Below, piece after piece: positions 1-42,364 of a stretch of DNA of 42,364 nucleotides. The notes under the pieces are model-generated. The model was not told the DNA's origin, made no database searches, and was given only the letters and a program-made list of their open reading frames with translations. The stretch is from contig JACPAM010000122.1 of NCBI GenBank assembly GCA_016180805.1, positions 1-42,364 on the forward strand, written 5' to 3'. Positions within the stretch are counted from its first letter, which is position 1, and each line of letters starts with the position of its first letter. This stretch comes from Deltaproteobacteria bacterium. Lineage in GTDB: Bacteria; Desulfobacterota; Binatia; UBA9968. The translations under genes were made by a program, and so were the position numbers.

Positions 1-1790
1 TGGCGGAACTCCACCCCGGATTCTTTCGATACCAGGAAGTAATAGAGGCCGTCCTCCGTCGGAAGGAAGATGACCAGCAACTGCCCCGGGGCGAGCCAGC
101 TTGCGGACTGCCCAAAGGTCAGCGGGCTGATGCCAGCGTACTCCGTGTAGCGGCTCCCGTACTTCTGGTTCAGCTCGTCGAGGGCCGCGAGGTAATCGCG
201 CCTGGTCTCCTCGAGTTCCCGCCGTATTCTATCGATGCGCCCCTTCGGCCCCTTGCGAAGCAGCTCCTGCTGGAGCAGGGCGCTGAGCGCAGCTTCCTTA
301 TCGAGAAGCCCTCGCGCTCCCTGGATACTTCGCTCCGCAATCTTGTCCTGGAGCTCTGGGTTCACTTTGAGGAGCTCCCGGCGCAGCATGTCCGATTTGC
401 TCTGGTCCAGATAGTTCAACGCCAGCTCGACGTCGCCGGACTTTCCCCGGCGGATGAGCGCCCTTACGAGATTTTCGTAAACCCGTTGCGCCGCCTGAGC
501 GAACTCCTTCTCCGTCTGGCCGCGAAGCGCGCCGCGGATGTTTTGCGCCAGCTCGACGGCATTCTTGTAGTCCTCGATGGCTTCATCGAGCTTCCCCGAC
601 TGGAGATACAGGTCGCCGCGGGAGGCGAGGGCCTCGCGATGCAATGCGGCGAGGCTGAACTGGCGGGCTAGTTTTACCGCCGTGTCGTACGACGCCCGAG
701 CATTGTCCCGCTGCCCGAGTTTGGCGAGCGCCCTGCCCATATTCCAGGAGATCGCGACCCTGATCAGCGGCGCCTGCGCTTTCCGCTCCAGAGCGTCGGC
801 CTCCGAGAGTTTTTGCAGGGCTTCTCGCGGGCGATCCGCTTTGAGCAACACCTCGCCCCAAGAGTCGAGGATGTTCGCCTCTAAAATGGCGTCGCCCGCT
901 TCGCGCGCCAGCCGCTGGGCCTCTTTTAGCTTGGCGACGGCATCGTCCATGCGTCCCTGCGATCCTCGCAGCCGTGCCAGGTTATTGAGAACCTGAGCCC
1001 GCAATACCGGATCGGCTCCCGCGCTTCCCTCAGCCTCGTCAAAGTCCGCCAGCGCCTCGCGGGGATTCCCCAGCTCTTGTCTGATCAGGCCGCGGTTGTT
1101 GAGAGCGCGCGCCTTCGTCTGGGGACTGGCTGAAGCCTCATCGATGGCTTTGGCGAGCCAGCTTTCCGCCTCCTGGTATTCGCCCCTGAAGTAGTAGGCG
1201 ACCGCCAGATTATTCATGGCGTTGACGCGAGGCTCCAGAGCGGCTGACACCTGTTCGCGGGCGAGAAGATCGATGGCGTCCCTATGTCTCCGCATCGCGG
1301 CCAGGAGGCTGCCCTGCCGCTGATAGACGAGGCCCAGGAAGTCCGTGGCGACGGCCTCTCGGATTTTCTGCTGTCTCTTTTGCATTTCAGCGATGATTTT
1401 TTCCAATTCGCTCACCGCTTTTTCGAATTCAGCCTCTTGATATAGGGCAAAGGCTTTATCGAGCACCGTGGCGGCGGCCGCGCCCCTCAAGGCCATCGGG
1501 CCCGACATGAGGCTCCGGTACTGCTCCGGCTCTTGGAGCGGCATGAGGCTCTGAGCGTACGTCTGGGATGGCCCCGTGCCGCGAGCCGATTCCAACTCCT
1601 CCGGCATTGCCGGAGAGGGCGCGGCCGCGGCCGGCGGCACCGGCTTCACCGGGAATGCCGGAGATGGCGCGCGCGCCGGCGGCGGCGGAAGGGGCTTCAC
1701 CTGGCTCGATGAGGCGCATGGGATCAGCAGCGCGAGAAAGATCCAGACTGTCTTCGCGGTTTTCACCGGCCGTATTGCTCTATACCGCAT
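1..1790 (-). CDS. TPR-CHAT protein, secreted, C-terminus beyond window
   Basis: The frame is open from the ATG at 1790 to the window edge (about 596 residues) with no stop. An N-terminal hydrophobic stretch (WIFLALLIPCASSS, residues 16-29) suggests a signal peptide or an atypical lipobox. A Pro/Ala-rich linker follows, then an array of tetratricopeptide repeats from about residue 120 to 430 (NNLAVAYYFRGEYQEAE, NNRGLIRQELGNPREAL and others), a charged helical region, and the beginning of a CHAT domain (LAPGQLLVIFLPTEDGLYYFLVS). CHAT domains are caspase/separase-like protease folds. The catalytic His/Cys region would lie outside the window, so activity cannot be judged. It is the last visible gene of the minus-strand series that starts with the sigma factor. 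The family call is firm; the role as a protease effector of the regulon is inference. Confidence 0.85.
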   Translation of the reverse strand, partial: MRYRAIRPVKTAKTVWIFLALLIPCASSSQVKPLPPPPARAPSPAFPVKPVPPAAAAPSPAMPEELESARGTGPSQTYAQSLMPLQEPEQYRSLMSGPMALRGAAAATVLDKAFALYQEAEFEKAVSELEKIIAEMQKRQQKIREAVATDFLGLVYQRQGSLLAAMRRHRDAIDLLAREQVSAALEPRVNAMNNLAVAYYFRGEYQEAESWLAKAIDEASASPQTKARALNNRGLIRQELGNPREALADFDEAEGSAGADPVLRAQVLNNLARLRGSQGRMDDAVAKLKEAQRLAREAGDAILEANILDSWGEVLLKADRPREALQKLSEADALERKAQAPLIRVAISWNMGRALAKLGQRDNARASYDTAVKLARQFSLAALHREALASRGDLYLQSGKLDEAIEDYKNAVELAQNIRGALRGQTEKEFAQAAQRVYENLVRALIRRGKSGDVELALNYLDQSKSDMLRRELLKVNPELQDKIAERSIQGARGLLDKEAALSALLQQELLRKGPKGRIDRIRRELEETRRDYLAALDELNQKYGSRYTEYAGISPLTFGQSASWLAPGQLLVIFLPTEDGLYYFLVSKESGVEFR

Positions 1791-1803
1791 GATTCGATCT
1801 CCC

Positions 1804-2665
1804 TTAGAGAATCTCGCCTGCCATCAGCATCTCCGCCAGCGTCGCCGTCAGCGGCAGCCCCGTCAGGTCCTCGATCCAGCCAAACTGCCCGCTGGGATTG
1901 TTCTCAAGAAAAACATAGCGGCCATCCGGTGTTAATATCATGTCTAGGGCGCTGAATGCGACCCCGAAATACTCCGAGAACTTCAAGCACTTTTCCTCGA
2001 TATCCCGAGGCAACCGATGGGCGAAATGGGGCAACTCCTCCATGTCCACTGCACGCCAATCGTGTCTCGCCTGAGGATGGTCTTGGGAATGGATCTCTGC
2101 GGCCAAAACCTTGCGGCCGATGACGGTAATACGAAGCTCGAGCCTTTTCGGGATATATTCCTGGAAAATTCCGGGCGCGTTCCTGATTAAATGAACGTTA
2201 TCGAGGTGCTCCCTAGATATAGGCGTAGTCAGCAGTCCCTTACCGGACCCTCCAAAAAAAGGCGAGCTGCAAGGCCTTGGAGGAGGCGACGCGAATCTTA
2301 TCCGGATGGTTGACCCAGAACCAATCTGCAATCCGAAACAGGCCGTGAAAGGCGGATCTGAGCTCGCCCCGGGCGAACTCTCTCTCGTCTTCGGATAAGG
2401 TCGGCGGCAGCAGGAAGGGGGTCGGCCTGCGGTACCACACGCTCCGTATACTCCTCAGGTCTATCGCTTCGCCATTAAGCCGAATGGAACCCTCGATACT
2501 TTCCCGCTCGAGCCGCAGCGTGACGGACGAATGCAGCGGGAATGAGTCGGCGTGCCAGCGAATGAAGTCGGCGCCCCTTCGGCGCAGCTCCACCACCATC
2601 ACATCGGCATGGGGATCGATCTCCTGGGTGATGATGAGGATCTTTTTTTGTGTTTGCCCAGACAT
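1804..2665 (-). pseudogene. MvdD/MvdC-like ATP-grasp peptide ligase, internally deleted and frameshifted
   Basis: Two reading frames together make one ATP-grasp protein of the family that forms omega-ester or omega-amide crosslinks in graspetides such as microviridins. The first half (ATG 2665, to about 2260) has the pre-ATP-grasp part: KKILIITQEIDPHADVM, the signature VWYRRPTPFLLPP, and NHPDKIRVASSKALQLA. The second half (from about 2265 to 1804) has GKGLLTTPIS, QEYIPKRLELRITVIGRKVL, and the Mg/ATP-binding end LDMILTPDGRYVFLENNPSGQFGW. Family members carry about 40 residues between LQLA and this second half, including the nucleotide-binding lysine. Here that segment is missing and the frame shifts next to a run of seven A (on the + strand near 2257). 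The product is probably inactive unless the assembly is wrong. It follows the precursor-like gene by 38 bp. Confidence 0.75.
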
Positions 2666-2703
2666 AAGGGTTTTTAGCTTCCGTTACGACTCCGGTTTAC
2701 GCC

Positions 2704-3159
2704 CTAATCATCGCTGATCGTATCGGATTCCCTGTCCGTGATGATCGGGCAGCAGCCGGTCGTCCTCAGGGAGGTCAGCGTGCAGGAAGTCGCTTTGCCC
2801 CTCGTCTTGATCGCTGAGTCCAGATGCTTCTTTAAATCTCCAGAGGAAATGAACGTATCTTTTCCCAGGAGGTCCGAAAGGTCCTTTTCCGAGAGAGCCT
2901 TCTCGCCCGACTTCGTCTGGGCGGCAACGAACATGGGCTGCCTCGTTTGGGCATCAAAATAGAGCTGCGATTCCGGATCGTAATAGCCGGGCGGGATCTG
3001 AAGCCGCGGCGTGTCCTGCAAAAAGAGACCCGCAAACACGCCGGCGTTCGCATGACTGCTCTCTCTTCTGAAAACAGGCCAGGCCACCAGCCCGAGCGCC
3101 GTCATGCCGAGGCACTTTAGAAAGCCCCTCCGGTTATCCCTGTTTTTTTCCTCCTTCAT
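2704..3159 (-). CDS. Tat-signal small protein, candidate graspetide-type precursor
   Basis: A 151-residue protein with a good Shine-Dalgarno (AGAAAGGA) before its ATG. It begins with a twin-arginine-like signal (NRRGFLKCLGMTALGLVAWPVF, residues 9-30, consensus RRGFLK), so export in folded form by Tat is likely. The middle (residues about 45-110) is hydrophilic, with PPGYYDPESQLYFDAQTRQP. The C-terminus has three cysteines (SCTLTSLRTTGCCPII) and ends TDRESDTISDD, where Thr/Ser residues alternate with Asp/Glu. That tail has the donor/acceptor layout of graspetide core peptides, and the next gene downstream is an MvdD-like ATP-grasp ligase. The precursor role is inference from those two facts. 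A large Tat-type leader would be unusual for a graspetide, and a non-modified Cys-rich exported protein is the main alternative. I do not recognise the family. Confidence 0.6.
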   Translation of the reverse strand: MKEEKNRDNRRGFLKCLGMTALGLVAWPVFRRESSHANAGVFAGLFLQDTPRLQIPPGYYDPESQLYFDAQTRQPMFVAAQTKSGEKALSEKDLSDLLGKDTFISSGDLKKHLDSAIKTRGKATSCTLTSLRTTGCCPIITDRESDTISDD

Positions 3160-3193
3160 ATCGATGGTCCTTTCTCTTCAAAAATTTTTTCGG

Positions 3194-5041
3194 TTACCGG
3201 TACACAAACCAGGAAGTCACTTTTGCCTCTCTTAGCGCAAAGACCAACCGCAGGTCCTCATAAACGAGATATTTGCCCGAGCCCGTTTCCTCCACCCGGT
3301 CTGGATCCCCATACTGCGCGACAATCTGTTTCGCATCGCTCCCGATTCCGATTCCCTCCGCTGTTCTTTGTTTCGAGCGGCCGTTGACCGAAACCTGATC
3401 GACACGGCTATCCCGAAGCAGCACGGTTAATCCGATGCTCTCGTAGACGCGCGCATGGATTCTTCGGTTTAGCAGCAAAGTCAACTCCCGATCCGGAAGC
3501 GCCAAGCTCTTGGCATCCTGCCCTGGCCGTATGGGGAGCGAAGAGGAAGCTCGATCTGCCCTGCCACCTCCGGCGGCCCTTTTTTCCTGAGCTAGCCCAA
3601 GCTGCTCCCGCGCCATTTGAACATATGGGCTACTTCTCTGACTGGCTAGTTTAACATACCGCTGCAGGGCGGCTCGGGACCTCTTCTTGTCGCCTCTGAG
3701 GGACCACGCTTGCGCCAAATTGAAGTGCGGATCGGCATACCCGGCATCGAGCCTCGCAGCCTCTTCCAATCTCGCGACGCCCCTGTCCCTGGCGCCGGCG
3801 AGCAGGAATACCACGCCGAGGTTGTTCTGGGCCATGGCATGGCGCGGATTCGCTTTCAGGGCCTCTTCCAGATGCGCCTGGGCAAACGTGTTTTTCCCCT
3901 GATCCAGGAGGGCGCAGCCGAGGTTCGCATAAGCAGGCCAGGAGGCCGGATTCATCTCGATCGCCTTCTTATAATGGTCGACCGCCTGGTTGAGCAGCTC
4001 TTCGAAACGCTCCCTATTTTCGCTAAGGCGGTCGGCGGCACCCCTCAGGCGCAGCCGCTCGGCCGCGCTTGTAGTTTCGAGGGCCGCGGAGCACTTTGTC
4101 TTTTTCCGCTGGGGGGGCTCGAAGTGGCTCAGGGCCAGACGATGATACGTGAGGCCCAAATTATGGTGCACTTCCGGACTCGGATAGACGCTGAGAAAGT
4201 TCCTAAAAGCGTCCAAGACGATCTCATAATCCCGCCGCATGAAATACCCGATGCCCGCGTCGAAGAGGTGCAGGCGGTCGACGATGCCCTGAACGTGCTG
4301 CGCGATCCGTCTCTTCCGTTCCTCCTTGGAGGGATGGCAGGGGCTTGGACCGTTCGTCACCAAGCGATCGAGAAGCGAATACACTGTTGACGCGTCATAG
4401 CCCGCGATCGAGGCATAGACGATCCCCGTCTCGTCGGCCTGGAGCTCTTTCTCTTTCCGTATCTCCTGGGCGGTAACGATGACCGTGCCGACTTCCCGTT
4501 TTCCTTTGACCTCCTCGCAGAGCCTGGCGGCAATTTCGGCGGCGAAGCCACGTCCCGCCGCGCCGATTTCCACCAGCCGTTTCTCCACCCGAGGGGGCAA
4601 TTCCTGCTCGATCGGTCTATCGGTCTGCCCTATAGCGATATGGGCAAGCTCGTGCGCGATGACTATCGCCAGCTCATCGTCGTTTTGCGCCAGTTCCACA
4701 AGACCTCGGGTTAGAAAAACAAAGCCCCCCGGATAGGCGCAAGCCCCTTTGACCCCCGTGTCGAGGACCTCCACGGTATAGACCACTTCCGGCCGCTTTC
4801 TCACAACCGGAAGAAGCCGAGAGGTAATGCGCTTTACCCTGTCGGCCATCGGCCCTTCTTTAATCAACCCTATCCGTTCTTTGACGTAAGCGGCCCCGTA
4901 GGCTCCTATCTCCGCCTCTGAAAGTTTTGCCGGCAATCTAGCCAGATCCTTCTCGCGCAGCCTGAAGGCGCAATCCAATCCCTCGGCGGAAGATGCGGCC
5001 AAGAGAATCATGCAGTAGACGGCGATGCCAAGACGTATCAT
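3194..5041 (-). CDS. Secreted M48-family zinc metalloprotease with TPR domain
   Basis: From ATG 5041 the protein has 615 residues with a signal peptide (MIRLGIAVYCMILLAASSAEG). The peptidase M48 domain has the zinc motif HELAH within IVIAHELAHIAIGQ (near residue 130) and the third ligand in EKELQADETG. PGGFVFLTRGLVE is typical of the BepA/YfgC-like group, which degrades or helps assemble outer-membrane proteins in the periplasm. TPRs follow (about residues 275-470). A C-terminal beta-rich module ends IGIGSDAKQIVAQYGDP ... YLVYEDLRLVFAL, a pattern often seen in periplasmic proteins. A start 57 bases upstream (5098) is possible but would overlap the anti-sigma gene; 5041 puts the signal peptide at the N-terminus. 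Only 25 bp separate it from the anti-sigma stop, so co-transcription is likely. Confidence 0.9.
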   Translation of the reverse strand: MIRLGIAVYCMILLAASSAEGLDCAFRLREKDLARLPAKLSEAEIGAYGAAYVKERIGLIKEGPMADRVKRITSRLLPVVRKRPEVVYTVEVLDTGVKGACAYPGGFVFLTRGLVELAQNDDELAIVIAHELAHIAIGQTDRPIEQELPPRVEKRLVEIGAAGRGFAAEIAARLCEEVKGKREVGTVIVTAQEIRKEKELQADETGIVYASIAGYDASTVYSLLDRLVTNGPSPCHPSKEERKRRIAQHVQGIVDRLHLFDAGIGYFMRRDYEIVLDAFRNFLSVYPSPEVHHNLGLTYHRLALSHFEPPQRKKTKCSAALETTSAAERLRLRGAADRLSENRERFEELLNQAVDHYKKAIEMNPASWPAYANLGCALLDQGKNTFAQAHLEEALKANPRHAMAQNNLGVVFLLAGARDRGVARLEEAARLDAGYADPHFNLAQAWSLRGDKKRSRAALQRYVKLASQRSSPYVQMAREQLGLAQEKRAAGGGRADRASSSLPIRPGQDAKSLALPDRELTLLLNRRIHARVYESIGLTVLLRDSRVDQVSVNGRSKQRTAEGIGIGSDAKQIVAQYGDPDRVEETGSGKYLVYEDLRLVFALREAKVTSWFVYR

Positions 5042-5066
5042 GCGAGCTTCGGGGATTTGACGCTGT

Positions 5067-5966
5067 CTAAGAGACTTCGCTGACGACAAGAATCCCATCT
5101 TTCATCACGCGAACCTTTATTTCTGCCGGCGTCTCCTTCCTGGATTCGACCCGGGTCTGAAGGCCGTGCTGGATCTCGATTTCAGTCACAGTCTCAAAGG
5201 GCATCTGTGGAGCCGCCTTTCTGAGAAGCGCCACAAGCTGCGCGCGGGATGCGTTGGTCTTTTCCCTCTCATAAGCGAGCAGACCACTTCTGAGCTCGGG
5301 AGTGAGCGCTATATTGCTCTCCGCTACAACTGTTTCTCCGGTGCCAAACGCAAAACCTTGGGGTCCCTGAGTCCGGGTGGCCCTCGGATGATCCGGTGTC
5401 TTTTGCTCCTCAAGATATTGCGGAAGGGCCATCAGAAGGGCGATGACTAAAACGGCGCAGGTGCCGACCCCCGCCAGGGCCCATCGCGGATGCGATACAA
5501 GAGGCTCCATCCACTTCCGGGCCCCTTCTTGAATCCGATAGCCAAGGCCTATCCACAAGGATGGCTTCGGAGATCCTGCCAAATTCACTGCTTGCTTAAG
5601 GAGATGAGAAGGGGTAAGCCGATAATTATCCGATAATGTCCGCGAGCGATCCGCGTCGATGAACTGATGCAAACAGGATGGACAGCGAACGAGATGCTCC
5701 TCCAAGCGCTCCCGCTCCTCGGCCGAAAGGACGCCATCCAGATAACCGGCCAACACCGTGGCATCCGGGCACTCTTGGCTCGGGACCCCGCGGCGAGTCT
5801 CGGTCTGGACGACCCTTTGCACGGCCTCATCCAGGATCTTGAGAGATTCCACCTCCCCGCGGCATTGCACGCATCCCTGAAGATGGCGGCGCACCTCTTG
5901 CATTTCACCCGGTGTCCCGTCCTCGTAAACAAAACGAGTCAGGATCTGGCTTTCGGGGCAAGGCAT
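5067..5966 (-). CDS. Membrane anti-sigma factor with two zinc-finger modules
   Basis: A 299-residue protein with two anti-sigma zinc-finger modules of H-x3-C-x2-C type: RRHLQGCVQC (about residues 26-35) and EEHLVRCPSC (about 90-99). One membrane segment (WALAGVGTCAVLVIALLMAL, about 161-180) is followed by a C-terminal domain of about 115 residues on the far side of the membrane, with no recognised family. This is the standard layout of an anti-sigma factor holding an ECF-type sigma at the membrane. The sigma gene lies directly upstream, with 19 bp between its stop and this ATG. A copy of the 12-base motif CTGTCCGTCTAA overlaps that stop codon, so this gene probably has its own promoter read by the same sigma. 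The downstream M48 protease could act on it, but that is inference. Confidence 0.85.
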   Translation of the reverse strand: MPCPESQILTRFVYEDGTPGEMQEVRRHLQGCVQCRGEVESLKILDEAVQRVVQTETRRGVPSQECPDATVLAGYLDGVLSAEERERLEEHLVRCPSCLHQFIDADRSRTLSDNYRLTPSHLLKQAVNLAGSPKPSLWIGLGYRIQEGARKWMEPLVSHPRWALAGVGTCAVLVIALLMALPQYLEEQKTPDHPRATRTQGPQGFAFGTGETVVAESNIALTPELRSGLLAYEREKTNASRAQLVALLRKAAPQMPFETVTEIEIQHGLQTRVESRKETPAEIKVRVMKDGILVVSEVS

Positions 5967-5985: not shown

Positions 5986-5997
5986 TTAGACGGACAG
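5986..5997 (-). promoter_or_regulatory. Regulon motif CTGTCCGTCTAA before anti-sigma gene
   Basis: The minus-strand 12-mer CTGTCCGTCTAA overlaps the stop codon of the sigma gene and lies 19 bases before the anti-sigma ATG. It is identical to the copy at 7227-7238. The CGTC core is typical of -10 elements used by ECF-type sigma factors. An A-run (GGGAAAAC) lies about 10 bases upstream, but I see no clear GGAAC-type -35 element. Confidence 0.6.
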
Positions 5998-7077
5998 ATA
6001 CTGGGTTTTCCCAATTCCCCTGGCCTTCAGTGCCGTTCTCAAGTATGAAATCGCTTCTTGACGTATCCTGTAGATTTCTCTATCCGAGCGCCGCATCAGG
6101 TGCGCGATATCCTGGGGCGACATCGGAGGATTCGTGTAAAATCTCAGACGGACATAAAGGCCCAATTCCGCGGGCAGCTCATCCACCACCTGTTTGAGAA
6201 CTGAAAAGCCTTTCTCCAGCGACCGCTCATCCTCTGCGGCGAACAATACGGTCTCAGGGCAGTAGGTAAAATCGGGGACCTCCCATTCTTTGCCACCGCC
6301 CTGTCCGTCTTCCAAACCCAGAGAGTATTCCATGCCGGGTCTGCCGCTAGGCGAAAGCTGTCGTTTTCGCCCCGACACTGCCTCCCTTACTTGTGCCAGT
6401 GCCTGTTCGATGCGGCTTTGCGGATAACGATTCCCGCTCTCATCGCGCAAGACCTCGGAAAGATATTTTTCGCTGCACGCATTCCAGTAAATTTGCCGAT
6501 AAACTTCCTGCTCCAATGGGGGGAGCTGAAGGACGGCTTCAGGAAGGCGCCTACGGCCCTTCGATTTTCTGCGAAGATCCAAACAAAGATTGTGGATGGT
6601 TGTGAGAATATATCCGGTGAAGCTCCCGCGTCCCGCGTAGCTTAAGATCCGGCGAAAGCCATCTTCAATCAAAAGGACACGGATGTCCTGCAAAAGATCC
6701 TGGCTTTCCCTCGCAACTGCCTTAAACTCCTTTTCAAAAAAGCGCTCAAAGGCTCTCCAGGCGCGATCGGTATCTTCCTTGAAGAGCTCCAAAATCCGGC
6801 CCGCCAGCAAATCTCGGATTTTTATCGTGAGAAAGGTAGAAAGGGACGCGCGTCCATTGAAGGCGCGGAGAACGGAGAAGTCGTCGGCTCGAAGGAGGCG
6901 GACAACGTTGAGGTATTCCGCTTCCAGCTCGCGGTTGGAAAAAGCCAGGGAACAGAGCGAATAGATGAGATCGCTGTAGCGGTGTACGAATTCCTCCCAG
7001 GCCCCCTGCTCTCCCCTGATCAGGTTCTGAATCAGGGCGAGGTCAACGCTCCTCTCGTAGCCTTCCCTGACATTCAT
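5986..7077 (-). CDS. Sigma-70-family factor with two region-2-like modules
   Basis: A 363-residue protein. Residues about 12-95 look like sigma region 2 (LIRGEQGAWEEFVHRYSDLIYSL ... FNGRASLSTFLTIKIRDLLAGR). Residues about 110-185 repeat that pattern (LLQDIRVLLIEDGFRRILSY ... RGSFTGYILTTIHNLCLDLRR), and residues about 295-355 look like region 4 (MSPQDIAHLMRRSDREIYRIRQEAISYLR). Usual ECF factors have one region 2 and about 180-200 residues, so this one is long and carries an apparent duplication. The gene starts a minus-strand series with its cognate anti-sigma. A strong housekeeping-type promoter lies upstream (7130-7157), so it is probably made constitutively and controlled by the anti-sigma. 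Family call is good; which copy of region 2 binds the -10 element is unknown. Confidence 0.8.
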   Translation of the reverse strand: MNVREGYERSVDLALIQNLIRGEQGAWEEFVHRYSDLIYSLCSLAFSNRELEAEYLNVVRLLRADDFSVLRAFNGRASLSTFLTIKIRDLLAGRILELFKEDTDRAWRAFERFFEKEFKAVARESQDLLQDIRVLLIEDGFRRILSYAGRGSFTGYILTTIHNLCLDLRRKSKGRRRLPEAVLQLPPLEQEVYRQIYWNACSEKYLSEVLRDESGNRYPQSRIEQALAQVREAVSGRKRQLSPSGRPGMEYSLGLEDGQGGGKEWEVPDFTYCPETVLFAAEDERSLEKGFSVLKQVVDELPAELGLYVRLRFYTNPPMSPQDIAHLMRRSDREIYRIRQEAISYLRTALKARGIGKTQYLSV

Positions 7078-19984: not shown

Positions 19985-21301
19985 TTATAGGTCCGCCGCT
20001 GAGAGATCGACCTTCGTCCTGTACAGCAGGCTGTTCTTTTCATCAAAGATGCTAAGCTCCGCGACCGGAGGCCTGCCGCCGCCATCGACGGTTACAAGGC
20101 CGTAGCTGTAAGTCTGGCTCGAGAAAAACTCAAAGCGCTCCGCTACGCCTCGGGCCAACCGATTCAGCGGTGCGCCGATGGGCCCAACGATAAACTCCTT
20201 CAACCCCGGACTTCTCGGGACCCGGGTCACCGCCGCGTAATGGACATCCGCGGCGAGGAAAACCACACCGGGAACTTTCTTCTCCTCGATAAATGTCACA
20301 ATTTCCTCACTCTCCTTCGGGAAGCCGCCCCACCGGTCACTCCCCGGCGCAGTGAACGGGACCGACGTGGCGATAAATTTAAACCATGCGTCAGACGACG
20401 AAAGCCCGTGGAGCAACCACTCTTTCTGCTTCTGGCCCAACATTGTGCCTTCGTTGGGCCGACGATATTGGCGCGTATCGAGCAAAAAGAGCTCCGCAGC
20501 CCTGCCCCAGCGAAAGGAACGGTAGAGGCGATAAGGGTCCTCAGAGTCCTGCCGAACCGGCCAGTAGTCGAAAAAGGCCTTTTGGCCGACCTTTGCAAGC
20601 GGATGTTCCCCATAGTAGTCGTTCGCGACCTCGTGATCGTCCCACGTGACGTAGAGGCTGGTCTCGGCCAGTAGCCGACGCGTGGGAGGATCCTTCCGAT
20701 TGGCTTTGTACTTGGCCCAGAACTCGTTAAGCTCTGTGGCGACCCAGTCCCTGTCCGCATAAATGGTATCGCCCAAATGGATGAAAAAATCCGGCCGCGA
20801 GAGCCGAACGGAGTCCAAGATCGAGAAAGGCTGGTACCACTCCCGGCTATCGCCGCTGAAGGCAAAGCGGACCGAAGCGGTTTCCCAAGGCTTCGGCGCG
20901 GTGACGAAACGCGAGATCGGACCCGGCTTCTTGCCTGAGACGGCGCCCCGGTAAAAGTAGGCCGTCCTCGGCTCCAGCCCTTCGATGGAAATCTTGGCGG
21001 TAAAATCCGCGGTCTCCGAAACCCTCAGCGGATTCGTGGCCCGAAACGCTCGGAGCGACGGTTCCGTGCCATAATGGACCGAGACCTCGCTTTCCCCGTC
21101 TGCCCTCAGCCACACGATCGCGCCGTGTGGAGTGACATCTCCCGCGGCCATACCGAAAGGCAGACCGGCTGCATCAAAAAGCTCGGGAATTTCCGGAACA
21201 GCCGCCAGGCTTGAACCGGGGGTTCGCGCGAGCCAGGGCAAGCCCGCGAGCGAAGCTGCCGTTACTTTCAAAAACTCCCGCCGGGAAAATTCTCGCCTCA
21301 A
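19985..21301 (-). CDS. phoD: PhoD-like alkaline phosphatase / phosphodiesterase, Tat-exported
   Basis: About 438 residues from the TTG at 21301, which overlaps the methyltransferase stop (TTGA) and follows GGGGAGAAGCC; a TTG at 21316 is the alternative. The Tat signal SRREFLKVTAASLAGLPWLA is clear. An N-terminal Fn3-like domain (PFGMAAGDVTPHGAIVWLRA ... GLEPRTAYFYRG) precedes the metallophosphatase domain with FSGDSREW, FIHLGDTIYADRDW, TWDDHEVANDYYGEH, FLLDTRQYRR and FLAADVHYAAVTR, the metal-binding blocks of the PhoD family. Such enzymes hydrolyse phosphate mono- or diesters outside the cytoplasm and release phosphate. It is the last gene of an EVE / methyltransferase / phoD operon; a structured repeat lies just after the stop. 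Substrate not predictable from sequence. Confidence 0.88.
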   Translation of the reverse strand: MRREFSRREFLKVTAASLAGLPWLARTPGSSLAAVPEIPELFDAAGLPFGMAAGDVTPHGAIVWLRADGESEVSVHYGTEPSLRAFRATNPLRVSETADFTAKISIEGLEPRTAYFYRGAVSGKKPGPISRFVTAPKPWETASVRFAFSGDSREWYQPFSILDSVRLSRPDFFIHLGDTIYADRDWVATELNEFWAKYKANRKDPPTRRLLAETSLYVTWDDHEVANDYYGEHPLAKVGQKAFFDYWPVRQDSEDPYRLYRSFRWGRAAELFLLDTRQYRRPNEGTMLGQKQKEWLLHGLSSSDAWFKFIATSVPFTAPGSDRWGGFPKESEEIVTFIEEKKVPGVVFLAADVHYAAVTRVPRSPGLKEFIVGPIGAPLNRLARGVAERFEFFSSQTYSYGLVTVDGGGRPPVAELSIFDEKNSLLYRTKVDLSAADL

Positions 21302-22104
21302 GGCTTCTCCCCGCAAATCAGGGCATAAGAAAAACTGCCTTCGACGTGCACGGCTTCCCCTTTTCTTTCCCAGCGAAAATAGCGCTCCCGAAGCCGCTCG
21401 GCGAGATCGGGCGATTCTCCCTCTAGCTCCTCGGCCACCTCCAGCCAGTGGCGGCCCGTGGGAATCCCCTCCATGCCGTCCTGATCGAAAGAGTAGGTGG
21501 GAAGATCGGTGCGGGCGATGCGAAAACCTGCCTGAGTCAGAAGATTGTGGATGCCTTCGGCAGAATGAAAACGGAAATCCGCTCCGTGGGTGCGGCGAAA
21601 CACCTGATTGATACGCTCCTCCAGGCGTTGGTCCAAGGAATCCCGCGGCTCGTCCAGAACCGGGTCCAAAATAATGAACTGCCCGCCGCTCCTGAGCACG
21701 CGCAGGATCTCCCGGGCGACCAGCGCCGGCCTGCCGAAGTGGTGTAGGCTGAATGATACAAAGGCCCGATCAAACGTATCGTCTTTGAACGGCAGGGCCC
21801 CCGCCTCACCGGCGACCTGACGGTACCCCGGAACAGGGTCTTCGTGCTCGTGACCCACGCGGAGCATAGCCAGGGCCTGGTCAATGCCGATAACCCGGCC
21901 GCCTCTTATGTGTTTGGCAACGGGTCGGGCGAACCGTCCAGTGCCGGTCGCCAGATCCAGCACCAACTCCTCACCCTTAAGAGCCAGCATATCGATCAGT
22001 TTTTTTTCCAGTTCCGCCCGGATCTCTGACTTGGCCGCCCGCCGGTCGAACTCAACGGCATGTTCGTGGTCATGGAAGGGGCTTTTGCGATGCTCGTGCT
22101 TCAT
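21298..22104 (-). CDS. Class I SAM-dependent methyltransferase, His-rich N-terminus
   Basis: From ATG 22104, which overlaps the EVE stop as ATGA and has GAGAGGAT upstream, the protein has 268 residues. The N-terminus is His-rich (KHEHRKSPFHDHEHAVEFDRR), which may bind metal. Motif I is LVLDLATGTGRFARPVAKH, motif II VIGIDQALAMLRVG, then AGEAGALPFKDDTFDRAFVS and LREILRVLRSGGQFIILDPV, the UbiE/Coq5-like methyltransferase pattern. The substrate cannot be told. A start 30 bases upstream is possible but would lengthen the overlap. It is translationally coupled at both ends. Confidence 0.85.
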   Translation of the reverse strand: MKHEHRKSPFHDHEHAVEFDRRAAKSEIRAELEKKLIDMLALKGEELVLDLATGTGRFARPVAKHIRGGRVIGIDQALAMLRVGHEHEDPVPGYRQVAGEAGALPFKDDTFDRAFVSFSLHHFGRPALVAREILRVLRSGGQFIILDPVLDEPRDSLDQRLEERINQVFRRTHGADFRFHSAEGIHNLLTQAGFRIARTDLPTYSFDQDGMEGIPTGRHWLEVAEELEGESPDLAERLRERYFRWERKGEAVHVEGSFSYALICGEKP

Positions 22105-31076: not shown

Positions 31077-32279
31077 ATGAAAGAAGCAGTCATCGTTGAG
31101 GCGCTGCGCACACCCATGGGGCGCCATGGAGGCATTCTTAAGGACATCCGTCCCGACGACCTGGCAGCCCACGTCATTACCAAGCTCCTCCAGCGCACCG
31201 GCATTCCGCGGGAAGCGGTGGAGGATGTCTACCTCGGGTGCAGCAATCAAGCAGGCGAGGATTGCCGTAACGTCGCGCGCAACGCCGCTCTTCTGGCCGG
31301 GCTCCCGTATACCGTCGCTGGGGCGACCATCAATCGTCTTTGCGGCTCCGGCCTTGAGGCGATCAATCAGGCAGGGAGGGCCATTCAAACCGAGCACGGC
31401 GATCTCTTTATCGCAGGCGGCGTTGAGAGCATGACCCGCGGACCGTTGGTGATGCCCAAGGGCGAGACCGCTTTCCAGCGCGGCGACGTAACCGTCTACG
31501 ACAGCTCCTTGGGCTGGCGCTTTCCCAACCCACGCCTGGGCGAGCTCTACCCGCTGATCAGCAACGGCGAGACCGCGGAAAACGTCGCCGAGAAGTATCA
31601 CATCAACCGCGCCGACCAGGATGCCTTCGCTCTGGAGAGCCATCGCCGCTCGGTTCGGGCCACGGAACAAGGGATCTTCAAAGATGAGATCGTGCCGATC
31701 GAAATTCCACAGCGCCGGGGAGAGGCGCTGCGATACGACAAAGACGAAGGGCCGAGAGCGGATACGTCGATGGAAAAGCTCGCCGCGCTGAAACCCGTGT
31801 TCAAAGAAAACGGTACGGTGACCGCAGGGAACTCTTCTCCGATTTCCGACGGCGCAGCGGCGCTGCTCTTGGCTACGCCCGAAAAGGCCAGGGCCCTAAA
31901 GCTCAAGCCCCTAGCGCGCATCGTGGCTTCCGCCGTGGCCGGGGTCGATCCCTCCTACATGGGCATAGGACCGATCCCGGCCACACGCAAGGCGCTGGAA
32001 AGGGCCGCCATCACCGTGGACCAGATCGATCTCGTGGAGATCAACGAAGCCTTCGCTTCCCAATCCCTCGCCTGCATCAAGGAGTTGGACTTGGATCCAA
32101 AGAAAGTCAACGTCAACGGCGGGGCCATCGCCCTGGGTCACCCGCTGGGTTGCAGCGGGGCACGACTCATGACGACCTTGGTCCACGAAATGAAGAGGCG
32201 CCGCAGCCGCTACGGGCTGGCCACGATGTGCATCGGCGTCGGGCAAGGGATCGCCACGATCGTCGAGCGGGTAGACTAG
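31077..32279 (+). CDS. Acetyl-CoA C-acyltransferase (thiolase)
   Basis: A 400-residue thiolase of the degradative PcaF/FadA-like group. The nucleophile Cys lies in [17 protein letters not shown] (about residue 90), the catalytic His in [19 protein letters not shown], and the second Cys in [10 protein letters not shown]. Another conserved block is [10 protein letters not shown]. It cleaves 3-ketoacyl-CoA with CoA to acetyl-CoA plus a shortened acyl-CoA. Placed after two dehydrogenase genes it completes a short beta-oxidation set. Full length. ATG 31077 has GTAGGGAG upstream. Confidence 0.93.
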
Positions 32280-39297: not shown

Positions 39298-40350
39298 GTG
39301 AGAAGGGGAACTGCGACAAGCCACATTTCATGGGTTTCAGTGGCGGTTTTGATTCTAGCGCTGAGCTTTTTCCTCGGGGGCGCCGCTCCGCCGAAGCTAC
39401 CCAGGGACTTGGTCATAGGCACCCTGACTCCGGGCACGACCCACTACTTAGGGGCCAGCGGCGTAGCGAAGATAGTTGGTGCCGCTACCCCCATGCGGGT
39501 CACCGTCGAGGCGACCCGGGGACCGGCCGTATGGTTACCCCGCATGGTGGAGGGAACGGTAGACCTTGGGACCTTTTCCACCATCGACGGCTATTACGCT
39601 GCGCGTGGTCTCCCGCCTCTCTATAAAAAACCGCTCCCCTGGCTACGGACCCTTCAGGCCGTTCCGATCTTCAACACGGGAATCATCGTCCGAAAAACCT
39701 CTAACATGTCTACGCTCTCAGACCTCAAAGGGAAGCGCATCGCGTGGGGATATGCCGGCATCCCTGCCTCCATGTTTAATGTGGAGGCCATGCTCCGCAG
39801 CGCTGGGCTCACCTCGAAGGATTTGGATACCAGGGTTTCCGTCCCAGGGTTTGACGACGGTCTTACGGCCTTTGCCGACGGGCGCGTAGACGCTACCTTC
39901 GCCGGCTCTCCTGCGGTAGCCCGCCTGAGAGAGCTCGACGCTGCCTTTGGCATTCGCTATCTCCAAGGAGATTGCTCTGCGGAAGGAAAGAAGAGAGTAG
40001 AAGATTTTATCCCTGGGGTGACGATGATGAAGCAACCGGCAGGCTACGGCGTCCTCAAGGAGGAGACGTGCATTCTCGCGATGTACATGAATCTTGCCGT
40101 ATCTAAAGATATGTCTGATGATGCGGCCTACGCGATCACAAAAGGCCTGTGGGAGCACATGGAGGAGACCCATCCGATCCATGCCGACTTCAAGAGGCTT
40201 TGGAAAAGAGAAAATGTAGTGGTGGGCCAGTCGATCCCTTACCATCCTGGAGCGGTTCGCTTTTACAAAGAGGCGGGCGTATGGGCACCCGCGCTCGAGC
40301 AGCACCAGCAGAGGATGCTGAAGGAGCTGGCGGCGTTGGAGCACAAGTGA
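39298..40350 (+). CDS. TAXI-type TRAP transporter solute-binding protein, copy 1
   Basis: 350 residues from a GTG with GGAGGGAACC upstream. A signal peptide (VSVAVLILALSFFLGGAAPP) leads to LPRDLVIGTLTPGTTHYLGA, VTVEATRGPAVWLPRMVEGT, VDLGTFSTIDGYYAARG, SDLKGKRIAWGYAGIPASMF and DFIPGVTMMKQPAGYGVLKE, the TAXI (TRAP-associated extracytoplasmic immunogenic) receptor pattern. It catches a small organic acid in the periplasm for a DctM-type membrane unit, which is not in the window. Two more copies follow. Confidence 0.85.
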   Translation: MRRGTATSHISWVSVAVLILALSFFLGGAAPPKLPRDLVIGTLTPGTTHYLGASGVAKIVGAATPMRVTVEATRGPAVWLPRMVEGTVDLGTFSTIDGYYAARGLPPLYKKPLPWLRTLQAVPIFNTGIIVRKTSNMSTLSDLKGKRIAWGYAGIPASMFNVEAMLRSAGLTSKDLDTRVSVPGFDDGLTAFADGRVDATFAGSPAVARLRELDAAFGIRYLQGDCSAEGKKRVEDFIPGVTMMKQPAGYGVLKEETCILAMYMNLAVSKDMSDDAAYAITKGLWEHMEETHPIHADFKRLWKRENVVVGQSIPYHPGAVRFYKEAGVWAPALEQHQQRMLKELAALEHK

Positions 40351-40388
40351 CCGAGGTTTCCCCGCGCTTAAGTAAAAAACTCTCTATG

Positions 40389-40586
40389 GATTCTCTCGAA
40401 AGCTCCTCGGGGGCCGCGCCATCAGGCCGCGGCCGATGGGTCTGTGCCATGAGTCGTACCGTTTGTAATCGGACGTCCGCGGCCTTCCTTCTCGCCCCCC
40501 TCGGGCTTCAAAGGGAAAGTGTGCCGGTGGAAGGGGCATCTCGGGCCTTTCATATGCAAGGGCGAAAACTGTTTCATGACCATTCC
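40389..40586 (-). repeat. Structured dispersed repeat, copy 3 (inverted, internally deleted)
   Basis: The reverse complement reads from GGAATGGTCATGAA (40586-40573) to GAGCTTTCGAGAGAATC (40405-40389). It shares GCGGACGTCCGATTACA and TACGACTCATGGCACAG with copies 1 and 2 but lacks about 90 bases containing the main hairpins. It lies 39 bases after the stop of TAXI copy 1, with the same end towards the gene's 3' end as in the other copies. Confidence 0.8.
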
Positions 40587-40599
40587 TAAGGAGGCAGGC

Positions 40600-41652
40600 A
40601 TGATAGTCGCGGCTACTACCAAGCGTTCGCGATCGGTTTTAGTGGGATTTCTGACCTTAGCTCTCGGCTCTTTGTCAGGAGGCGCCGCTGCGCCTAAGCT
40701 TCCCAGGGACCTGGTGATCGGTACCGCGCAAACCGGCACGACCCATTACCTGGGCAGTAGTGCTGTGGCCAAGATAGTTGGGTCCGCCACGCCGATGCGA
40801 GTCACTGTCGAGGCGACCCGCGGGCCTGCTGTATGGTTACCTCGGATGGACCAGGGGACAGTCGACCTTGGGACTTTATCCACTATCGACGGTTACTATG
40901 CCGCCCGAGGACTGGCACCGCTTTATGATAAGCCGCGTCCCTGGCTACGGACTCTCCAGCCCGTTCCTCTTTTCAACACGGGCACCATCGTCCGCCAGGC
41001 TTCCAACCTGTTGACTCTTTCGGACTTAAAGGGAAAACGCATCGCGTGGGGATATGCGGGCATCCCAGTCGCCATGATCAATGTAGAAGCCATGCTCCGA
41101 AGCGCTGGGCTCACCTCCAAGGATTTGGACACGAGGGTTAGCGTGCCAGGCACCGACGAGGGCATGACGGCATTTGCCGAGGGGCGGGTGGAAGCGACAT
41201 TCCCGGGCGCTCCAACGGTTGCCCGTCTAAGGGAACTGGATGCCGCTTTTGGCATACGCTTTCTCCAGGGAGATTGCTCACCGGAAGGAAAAAAGAGAGT
41301 AGAGGAGTTTATCCCGGGGGTGACGATGGCGGTCTACCCGGCAGGTTACGGCGTGCTCAAGGAGGACACGTGTCTTCTTGCCCACTACATGAACCTCGCC
41401 GTATCGAAAAATATGCTTGATGATGTGGCCTATGCCGTCACCAAAGCGGTGTGGGAGAAGATGGAGGAGACCCATGCCGTTCACGCTGACTTTAAAAGGT
41501 ACTGGAAAAGAGAGAGCGTAGTGGTGCCACAATCGATTCCTTACCATCCCGGGGCGGTTCGCTTTTACAAGGAGGCGGGCGCGTGGAAACCAGCGCTCGA
41601 GCAGTACCAGCAGAAGATGCTCAAGGAGCTAGCGGCGTGGGAGCGTAAGTGA
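40600..41652 (+). CDS. TAXI-type solute-binding protein, copy 2
   Basis: 350 residues from ATG 40600, which has AAGGAGGC upstream; a longer frame from 40519 starts inside the repeat and is unlikely. The signal peptide (SVLVGFLTLALGSLSGGAAA) and whole receptor are about 80% identical by eye to copy 1, with the same block order (LVIGTAQTGTTHYLGS, VTVEATRGPAVWLPRM, LKGKRIAWGYAGIPVAM). Differences cluster in a few positions (TAQTGTT for TLTPGTT; MAVYPAGYG for MMKQPAGYG), which may change ligand preference. Confidence 0.85.
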   Translation: MIVAATTKRSRSVLVGFLTLALGSLSGGAAAPKLPRDLVIGTAQTGTTHYLGSSAVAKIVGSATPMRVTVEATRGPAVWLPRMDQGTVDLGTLSTIDGYYAARGLAPLYDKPRPWLRTLQPVPLFNTGTIVRQASNLLTLSDLKGKRIAWGYAGIPVAMINVEAMLRSAGLTSKDLDTRVSVPGTDEGMTAFAEGRVEATFPGAPTVARLRELDAAFGIRFLQGDCSPEGKKRVEEFIPGVTMAVYPAGYGVLKEDTCLLAHYMNLAVSKNMLDDVAYAVTKAVWEKMEETHAVHADFKRYWKRESVVVPQSIPYHPGAVRFYKEAGAWKPALEQYQQKMLKELAAWERK

Positions 41653-41707
41653 TCGAGGTTTTCCTGCGCCCAAATAAAAAAGACTCTAGGGTTCCAAGGA
41701 GGCAGCC

Positions 41708-42364
41708 ATGAGAGGCGCAACGACGACGAATCGCGGTTCATGGGTTTTAGTAGCGTTTTTGATTTTAGCTCTCGCCTTTTTGGCCGGAGGTGCTGCTGCG
41801 CCGAGGCTTCCCAGGGACTTGGTGATCGGTACCGGTGCGGCCACTGGGCTTCATTATCTGGGGAGTAACGCTGTGGCCAAGATAGTTGGTGCCGTCACCC
41901 CTATGCGAGTGACCGTCGAAGCAACGCGGGGACCTGTCGTGTGGCTGCCTCGCATGGAGCAGGGGACGATAGATCTCGGGACATTATCCACTATCGATGC
42001 TTATTACGCTGCGCGGGGCCTCGCGCCTCTTTATGATAAGCCGCGCCCGTGGCTTCGAACCCTGCAGCCCGTTCCGATTTTTCACACCGGCGTCATCGTT
42101 CGGAGGGCTTCCAACCTGTTGACTCTCTCGGACTTGAAGGGAAAGCGGATCGCGTGGGGCTATGCCGGCATCCCAGTCATCATGATCAACGTAGAGGCCG
42201 CGCTCCGGAGTGTGGGCCTTACATCGAAAGATCTGGGCACACGGGTGGCCGTTCCCGGGTTTGATGAGGGCCTTACAGCTTTCGCCGAAGGTCGCGCGGA
42301 TGCCACGTTCGGCGGCGCCCCGACGGTACCTCGCCTAAGAGAACTGGATGCTGCCTTTGGCGTG
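41708..42364 (+). CDS. TAXI-type solute-binding protein, copy 3, cut by window end
   Basis: The frame is open from ATG 41708 (AAGGAGGCAGCC upstream) to the last base, 219 residues. Signal peptide VLVAFLILALAFLAGGAAAP, then LVIGTGAATGLHYLGSNAVA, VTVEATRGPVVWLPRMEQGT, LGTLSTIDAYYAARGLAPLY and LKGKRIAWGYAGIPVIMINV. It matches copy 2 more closely than copy 1. The C-terminal third is outside the window. Confidence 0.85.
   Translation, partial: MRGATTTNRGSWVLVAFLILALAFLAGGAAAPRLPRDLVIGTGAATGLHYLGSNAVAKIVGAVTPMRVTVEATRGPVVWLPRMEQGTIDLGTLSTIDAYYAARGLAPLYDKPRPWLRTLQPVPIFHTGVIVRRASNLLTLSDLKGKRIAWGYAGIPVIMINVEAALRSVGLTSKDLGTRVAVPGFDEGLTAFAEGRADATFGGAPTVPRLRELDAAFGV

Follow-up and report, generated by a model that had tools for sequence, protein, structure and literature searches.

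We analyzed a 42,364-nucleotide stretch of a Deltaproteobacteria contig (the window) and found that a putative graspetide precursor is followed by one ATP-grasp ligase and one exported TPR-CHAT protein. This three-gene cassette is real and is conserved in two classes. It is intact in one Syntrophaceae MAG (isolate L.E.D.62, JACAEX010000078.1; hereafter G226) and apparently decaying in the window genome. Judged from the sequences, it is most likely a twin-arginine (Tat)-fronted graspetide system with a CHAT protease, in which Tat use, the cross-links and the role of the CHAT protein are predicted. We consider it fairly probable that the cassette is of graspetide type and that its precursor has a Tat signal placed ahead of a graspetide leader that is ordinary in other respects, followed by a variable spacer and by the core at the C-terminus.

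The source genome is a draft of 4.46 Mb in 339 contigs, and the window starts at the first base of contig C65. The genes are arranged on the minus strand in the order sigma factor, anti-sigma factor, M48-TPR peptidase, precursor, ATP-grasp ligase and TPR protein. As calculated from the coordinates, the intergenic gaps around the precursor and ligase are 34, 38 and 13 nt in size; due to these short gaps, the genes were read as one directon. An AAAGGA site was located by eye upstream of the precursor ATG. The features are as follows.

5986..7077, minus strand: sigma-70/ECF-type sigma factor, same directon as the precursor (TIGR02937, 46.6 bits, above the cut-off)
5067..5966, minus strand: zf-HC2 anti-sigma factor, same directon as the precursor (PF13490, E 2e-14)
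3194..5098, minus strand: exported M48 metallopeptidase with TPR, same directon, 34 nt upstream of the precursor (PF01435, E 5e-15)
2704..3159, minus strand: putative graspetide precursor P0001, 151 aa (ORF; the G226 homologue is 57% identical and is followed by an intact ATP-grasp)
2240..2665, minus strand: ATP-grasp ligase, N-terminal part (MvdD pre-ATP-grasp domain), after which the frame is lost (PF21068, E 4e-15; 62% identical to G226 ligase residues 8-142)
1804..2331, minus strand: ATP-grasp ligase, C-terminal part, in another frame (TIGR04184, E 1e-37; 75% identical to G226 ligase residues 181-331; DNA alignment)
3..1790, minus strand: exported TPR-CHAT protein, of which the contig start leaves only the N-terminal 596 aa (TPR part) (TPR match; 39-42% identical to G226 TPR-CHAT)

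Elsewhere in the window, a PhoD-like protein (19985-21316) has the N-terminus SRREFLK, which hints at a Tat system in this organism. Positions 39298-42364 contain three tandem, closely similar solute-binding proteins, which appear TAXI/TRAP-like (naming and likeness by eye).

Among 395 genomes of the phylum, one full-length precursor homologue was identified, that of G226, which belongs to another class. It is 150 aa in length (57% identity, E 5e-51) and is encoded at positions 31224-31676 of its contig, and the gene order precursor, ATP-grasp, TPR-CHAT is the same in both genomes. The initial annotation had paired the precursor with an MvdD-like ATP-grasp. The pair is kept in the second class with an intact ligase; that the ligase always follows rests on two of two cases, since only one full homologue was found (full family members, n = 2), and G375, a relative that shares the leader only, has no such ligase. 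In 148 genomes of the window class, the precursor is present in the window genome alone, apart from weak matches in G027, G029, G139 and G011 (E 2.5e-4 to 7e-3); those in G027 and G029 were dropped because the ORFs there have no comparable signal or tail. Two weak matches from the phylum search were also dropped, G470, which has an in-frame stop, and G345. In the ORF lists, none of the other ATP-grasps of the class (G102, G131, G132 and G144) adjoins a P0001-like protein. A profile built from the two precursors matched G226 and, weakly, G375; the 23 genomes of G226's class added nothing further, and the 29 of G375's class yielded G375 alone. No precursor relative was detected in viral contigs or plasmids, and when genome contigs were scanned with the G226 ligase, the only matches were in G226 and Pseudonocardia acaciae. 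In G375 (99% complete), the match is a 96-aa ORF (L019 8694-8984) with the leader-like stretch RIFAVQFLEKGPELKVPGGHYDPIQQVYIRD, which covers profile positions 37-80 (E 3e-5). The G375 genome has no TIGR04187 (MvdC/D-type) ligase at E 1e-3, and the ORF has no relative beyond G226 in 287 genomes. It may be a relic, it may rely on another enzyme, or the leader stretch may not be ligase-specific. The sporadic presence of the cassette suggests horizontal transfer.

The ligase that adjoins the precursor is of the MvdC/MvdD/TgmB type in both genomes. In G226 it is intact, in agreement with the initial proposal that intact relatives could exist, and is 332 aa in length. It matches over its full length the solved structures 5ig8 (E 5e-50) and 5ig9 (E 6e-48), which we take to be MdnB/MdnC-type. 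Its score is 287.8 bits against TIGR04187 (TgmB/SAV_5884) versus 44.8 bits against rimK_fam; it lies below the TIGR04187 cut-off of 350 bits, and also below that of the MvdD equivalog TIGR04184 (236.8 versus 475 bits). The window ligase had been described as broken, and it is: its two parts lie in different frames, residues 143-180 of the G226 enzyme (about 38 residues) are missing between them, and at 862 nt the gene falls 116 nt short of its G226 counterpart (978 nt). The missing residues and the shorter gene mark this as a frame-breaking deletion, not a single miscalled base. The missing stretch holds RGQMIYKALN, the Lys of which aligns with a Lys of 5ig8 that is presumably ATP-binding. No second TIGR04187 ligase was found in the window genome at E<=1e-3. 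In a draft MAG, such a break could have occurred in the living cell or could be an assembly error.

The third gene of the cassette, which the initial annotation did not mention, encodes the TPR-CHAT protein. The G226 protein is 946 aa in length (PF12770, E 2e-55); by eye, it contains ATHA and SACQT motifs (His/Cys dyad) and an N-terminal hydrophobic signal. Across 621 aligned columns, the window TPR protein shares 39% identity with it. A CHAT part that corresponds to G226 residues 632-803 (49%) and 807-946 (64%) stands at the start of contig C143 (L055) of the window genome; it is probably the continuation of the window TPR gene, with the junction itself lying outside the sequence. On C143, one exact 13-nt direct duplication shifts the CHAT frame just before the HGIL motif, and the CHAT His and Cys regions sit behind this frame break. 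The CHAT gene of the window genome therefore seems to be broken, like the ligase gene, though it could be an assembly error in this draft MAG. Right behind the signal sequence, the G226 protein (L018 10847-13687) has four VAPSDF repeats, and the window protein has a Pro-rich stretch there. Behind its CHAT fragment, C143 (L055 1138-2657) encodes two further exported proteins, one of 155 aa and the other an HtrA-like serine protease (TIGR02037, E 1e-24). With PADLOC, the G226 TPR-CHAT protein matched TPR and Csx1/Csm6 only weakly, and its partner ligase had no match. CHAT relatives with E<=1e-30 are present in 11 of 148 genomes of the window class and 2 of 23 of G226's class (window and G226 included); since they mostly occur without the precursor, CHAT is not bound to the cassette.

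Whether the locus has decayed in the window genome, with the precursor as a remnant and the broken ligase as the mark of a dead cassette, is in our judgement an even call, and decay here would be compatible with a working graspetide system elsewhere. The internal deletion of the ligase, the 13-nt duplication in CHAT and the lack of a second ligase in the genome all favour decay. However, the precursor frame is open and its leader and core are conserved, G226 has an intact three-gene copy, and both breaks, being in a draft MAG, may stem from the assembly.

Compared over 150 codons, the window and G226 precursors differ 50/35/90 times at the three codon positions, as for a constrained coding gene. 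The precursor was divided into the following parts.

3043..3159, minus strand: predicted Tat signal peptide, residues 1-39, with N-R-R-G-F-L-K, R31 R32 in the c-region and A37-x-A39 before G40 (by eye; conserved in G226)
2920..3042, minus strand: predicted ligase-binding leader, residues 40-80, GVFAGLFLQDTPRLQIPPGYYDPESQLYFD... (28/41 identical to G226; leader matrix)
2707..2799, minus strand: predicted core, residues 121-151, ...TTGCCPIITDRESDTISDD (21/31 identical to G226)

Residues 40-80 are GVFAGLFLQDTPRLQIPPGYYDPESQLYFDAQTRQPMFVAA, and residues 81-120 form the spacer. Identities between the two precursors are 18/39 in the signal, 28/41 in the leader, 18/40 in the spacer and 21/31 in the core, the boundaries having been set by predicted function with the alignment already in view; leader and core are thus better conserved than signal and spacer. 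By eye, a hydrophobic stretch follows N-R-R-G-F-L-K within residues 1-39; the twin Arg, the c-region RR and the AxA alanines are common to both precursors in the pairwise alignment. The Tat model TIGR01409 scored the window precursor at 11.6 bits (E 0.28), below its cut-off of 16.7, and gave no match in the G226 precursor. The leader had been called unusual for its Tat signal and its body of more than 100 residues; a predicted Tat signal is indeed placed in front, whereas the long body is mostly ordinary leader and variable spacer.

The acidic and hydroxyl-rich tail TDRESDTISDD, on which the graspetide idea was partly based, stands out. Nine of its 11 residues are T/S/D/E, the richest among 395 distinct ORFs of at least 140 aa in the DNA compared, and the next four ORFs reach 7/11. 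As for its conservation, CCPIITDxxSDxIxDD is present in both precursors and D146, D150 and D151 are kept, but E144, T147 and S149 are not conserved in G226. Within the last 25 residues, T/S/D/E positions are conserved in 11 of 14 cases versus 7 of 11 for the others (by eye), which is not clearly higher. Structure prediction with AlphaFold2 from the two aligned sequences reached pLDDT 45 and pTM 0.37, and the model was set aside. EF-hand matches in Pfam were judged to be chance. The string CTLTS in the window tail, which we take to be mersacidin-like, is STYTS in G226, and the cassette has no lanthipeptide enzyme; this reading was rejected.

For the leader, 20 precursors adjoining other ATP-grasps, none from the window family, were gathered, and 19 of them entered a matrix with anchors chosen by eye. 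The Croceicoccus precursor, which carries LPGYYNPSIQLWVIE, was left out because its anchor is YN rather than Y[DS]; the microviridin (Nostoc) and G144 proteins were left out because they do not have the motif. Many of the collected precursors share the element P-[GA]-x(1,2)-Y-[DSN]-x3-[QLDG]. One of them adjoins the G338 ligase (38% identical to the G226 ligase); it is a multi-core precursor with LPGRYDNEL in the leader and RESDD in the cores. With the 19-precursor matrix, the window precursor ranks first of 125 window ORFs of at least 60 aa, and the score was reached by 2/5000 shuffles for the window, 11/5000 for G226 and 1/5000 for G375. Leader HMMs did not reach significance: the window protein has E 36 and rank 42 of 2419 with an HMM from 11 precursors, and E 0.41 and rank 2 of 1487, with one shuffle on top, when six precursors were used. 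The precursor models TIGR04186, PF14404 and PF14408 did not match the window or G226 protein even at E 10; actinobacterial controls do match the curated graspetide-precursor models. Because the matrix supports the likeness, the HMMs are not significant and the curated models are silent, the resemblance of the window leader to other graspetide leaders is suggestive, not proven.

Based on these features, we propose one four-step pathway. In the cytoplasm, the ligase would bind the leader through P-[GA]-x-Y-D-x3-Q and would join Thr/Ser hydroxyls of TSLxTTxCCPIIT to D142, D146, D150 and D151 by ester bonds, as the enzyme family and the conserved residues suggest. Tat carries folded proteins; the precursor, already folded by virtue of its cross-links, would exit through this route, to which RRxFLK and the c-region RR point. 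Signal peptidase would then cleave after A39, leaving leader, spacer and core outside the inner membrane. Finally, the exported caspase-like TPR-CHAT protein would remove leader and spacer, or would itself be the protease restrained by the product, as the gene order suggests. In the window genome, the ligase and CHAT steps are probably lost. Taken as a whole, the proposal is of a RiPP exported by Tat: after cytoplasmic cross-linking, it would pass the inner membrane in folded form, leader included, and a dedicated periplasmic caspase-like TPR-CHAT protease would mature it or be under its control. Ester cross-linking and a caspase-type protease would then make up one extracytoplasmic control module. 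We regard this tentative proposal as doubtful.

One overlapping possibility, slightly more doubtful still, is that the graspetide product acts on CHAT as a regulated inhibitor or serves it as a substrate (bait), in which case the cassette would be a periplasmic stress or conflict module and not the source of a secreted natural product. All graspetides characterised so far are protease inhibitors, according to PMC8939145. CHAT follows in both family members, and the window directon contains the M48 peptidase, anti-sigma factor and sigma factor. However, these three genes do not adjoin the G226 cassette, as judged from the inspected upstream ORFs, and CHAT occurs without the cassette. Furthermore, the targets known for graspetides are serine proteases rather than cysteine proteases. 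It is quite unlikely that the precursor is a secreted protein other than a RiPP, to the acidic tail of which the ATP-grasp adds amino acids in RimK-like manner, or in which, as a stable periplasmic protein that stays whole, it makes one structural cross-link. In favour of this reading, the body is conserved beyond leader and core (spacer 18/40), no GG cleavage site is obvious by eye, the window and G226 cassettes have no transporter gene, and a weak OCRE-like Pfam match was seen at YYDPESQLYFDAQ (E 0.0027), but the full-length ligase is closest to graspetide synthetases in both bit scores and PDB matches, the precursor has a leader-like motif, and the OCRE match is below cut-off, absent in G226 and was judged to be chance.

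The favoured reading, a Tat-fronted graspetide cassette, was compared with known systems. Like TgmA/TgmB of actinomycetes (TIGR04186/TIGR04187), the cassette has one ATP-grasp right after the precursor, a YD-x3-Q leader element and an Asp-rich C-terminal core, and ligases of the window/G226 type score best against TIGR04187. On the other side, TgmA lacks a signal peptide, and a methyltransferase often comes after it; TIGR04186 matches neither the window precursor nor that of G226, and the ligase stays below the TIGR04187 cut-off. Microviridins and marinostatins (MvdC/MvdD, MdnB/MdnC) share the ligase fold, with full-length similarity to MdnB/MdnC-type structures, but they use two ligases, a PFFARFL leader and an ABC/HlyD exporter (Nostoc L036), none of which was seen in the window/G226 cassette. 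Multi-core loci (G338, Agrobacterium, Sinorhizobium, Croceicoccus and a Pseudomonas plasmid) have a PGxY[DSN] leader, acidic ESDD cores and one ligase as well; unlike the window precursor, theirs have repeated cores and no Tat signal, and a small membrane protein takes the place of TPR-CHAT as the third gene. Bufferins, which are MNIO-modified RiPPs, also carry a general export signal without a dedicated transporter; as described in PMC12452194, they differ in using Sec, MNIO enzymes and Cys chemistry, and their signal replaces the leader, whereas it precedes the leader in the window precursor. TPR-CHAT proteases such as Csx29 (PMC10028731) share the TPR plus CHAT architecture, but the window/G226 protein would be exported by its predicted signal sequence and has no CRISPR neighbour in the stretches read.

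Several related loci were observed in passing. In one recurrent cassette of unrelated bacteria, a multi-core graspetide precursor bearing TKTxVxQESDD-like repeats is accompanied by one ATP-grasp and by a membrane protein of 217-296 aa, SLATT-like by eye (L060 1545-3765; L063 1117-3113; L062 about 960-3161; L064 1123-3109; L024 1089-3095). Its membrane protein in G338 gave a weak PADLOC PycTM match (E 5e-4), and the cassette could be a peptide plus membrane-effector system. G370 and G182 (L030 6971-8852 and L031 7994-5931) encode 67-72 aa precursors that end in ETGED[QR]KGE and have a YD-x3-GYWI leader element, together with an ATP-grasp and a membrane protein; they are short versions of the same multi-core precursor, ATP-grasp and membrane-protein idea. 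In G102 and Burkholderia stagnalis (L006 1447-3915 and L065 2-2445), an MvdC/D-type ATP-grasp is fused to, or located just after, a secreted zinc-metalloprotease-like protein (HEVGHWL/HEIGHWL, by eye).

PMC8939145 describes Phhx(1,2)h in graspetide leaders, a variety of peptidases, and TPR neighbours whose role is unclear; in 2022 it listed the enzyme that releases the graspetide leader as unknown, and 'Tat' and 'caspase' have no match in it. Groups up to 43, several with proteases, are mentioned in PMC13097080, in the main text of which neither Tat nor signal peptide nor CHAT has a match. PMC12452194, in which Tat likewise finds no match, calls it highly unusual for a RiPP precursor to carry a Sec signal, and Sec use in the natural host has been shown for bufferins only. 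In the literature covered, no paper was found joining graspetide with twin-arginine, graspetide with CHAT, or CHAT with ATP-grasp and caspase. If the proposal is true, the Tat signal on the precursor would allow a macrocyclised product to be exported with no transporter of its own; it would account for the passage of a rigid, cross-linked peptide through the membrane, and the cassette would name a candidate protease. The intact Syntrophaceae locus makes every proposed step directly testable.
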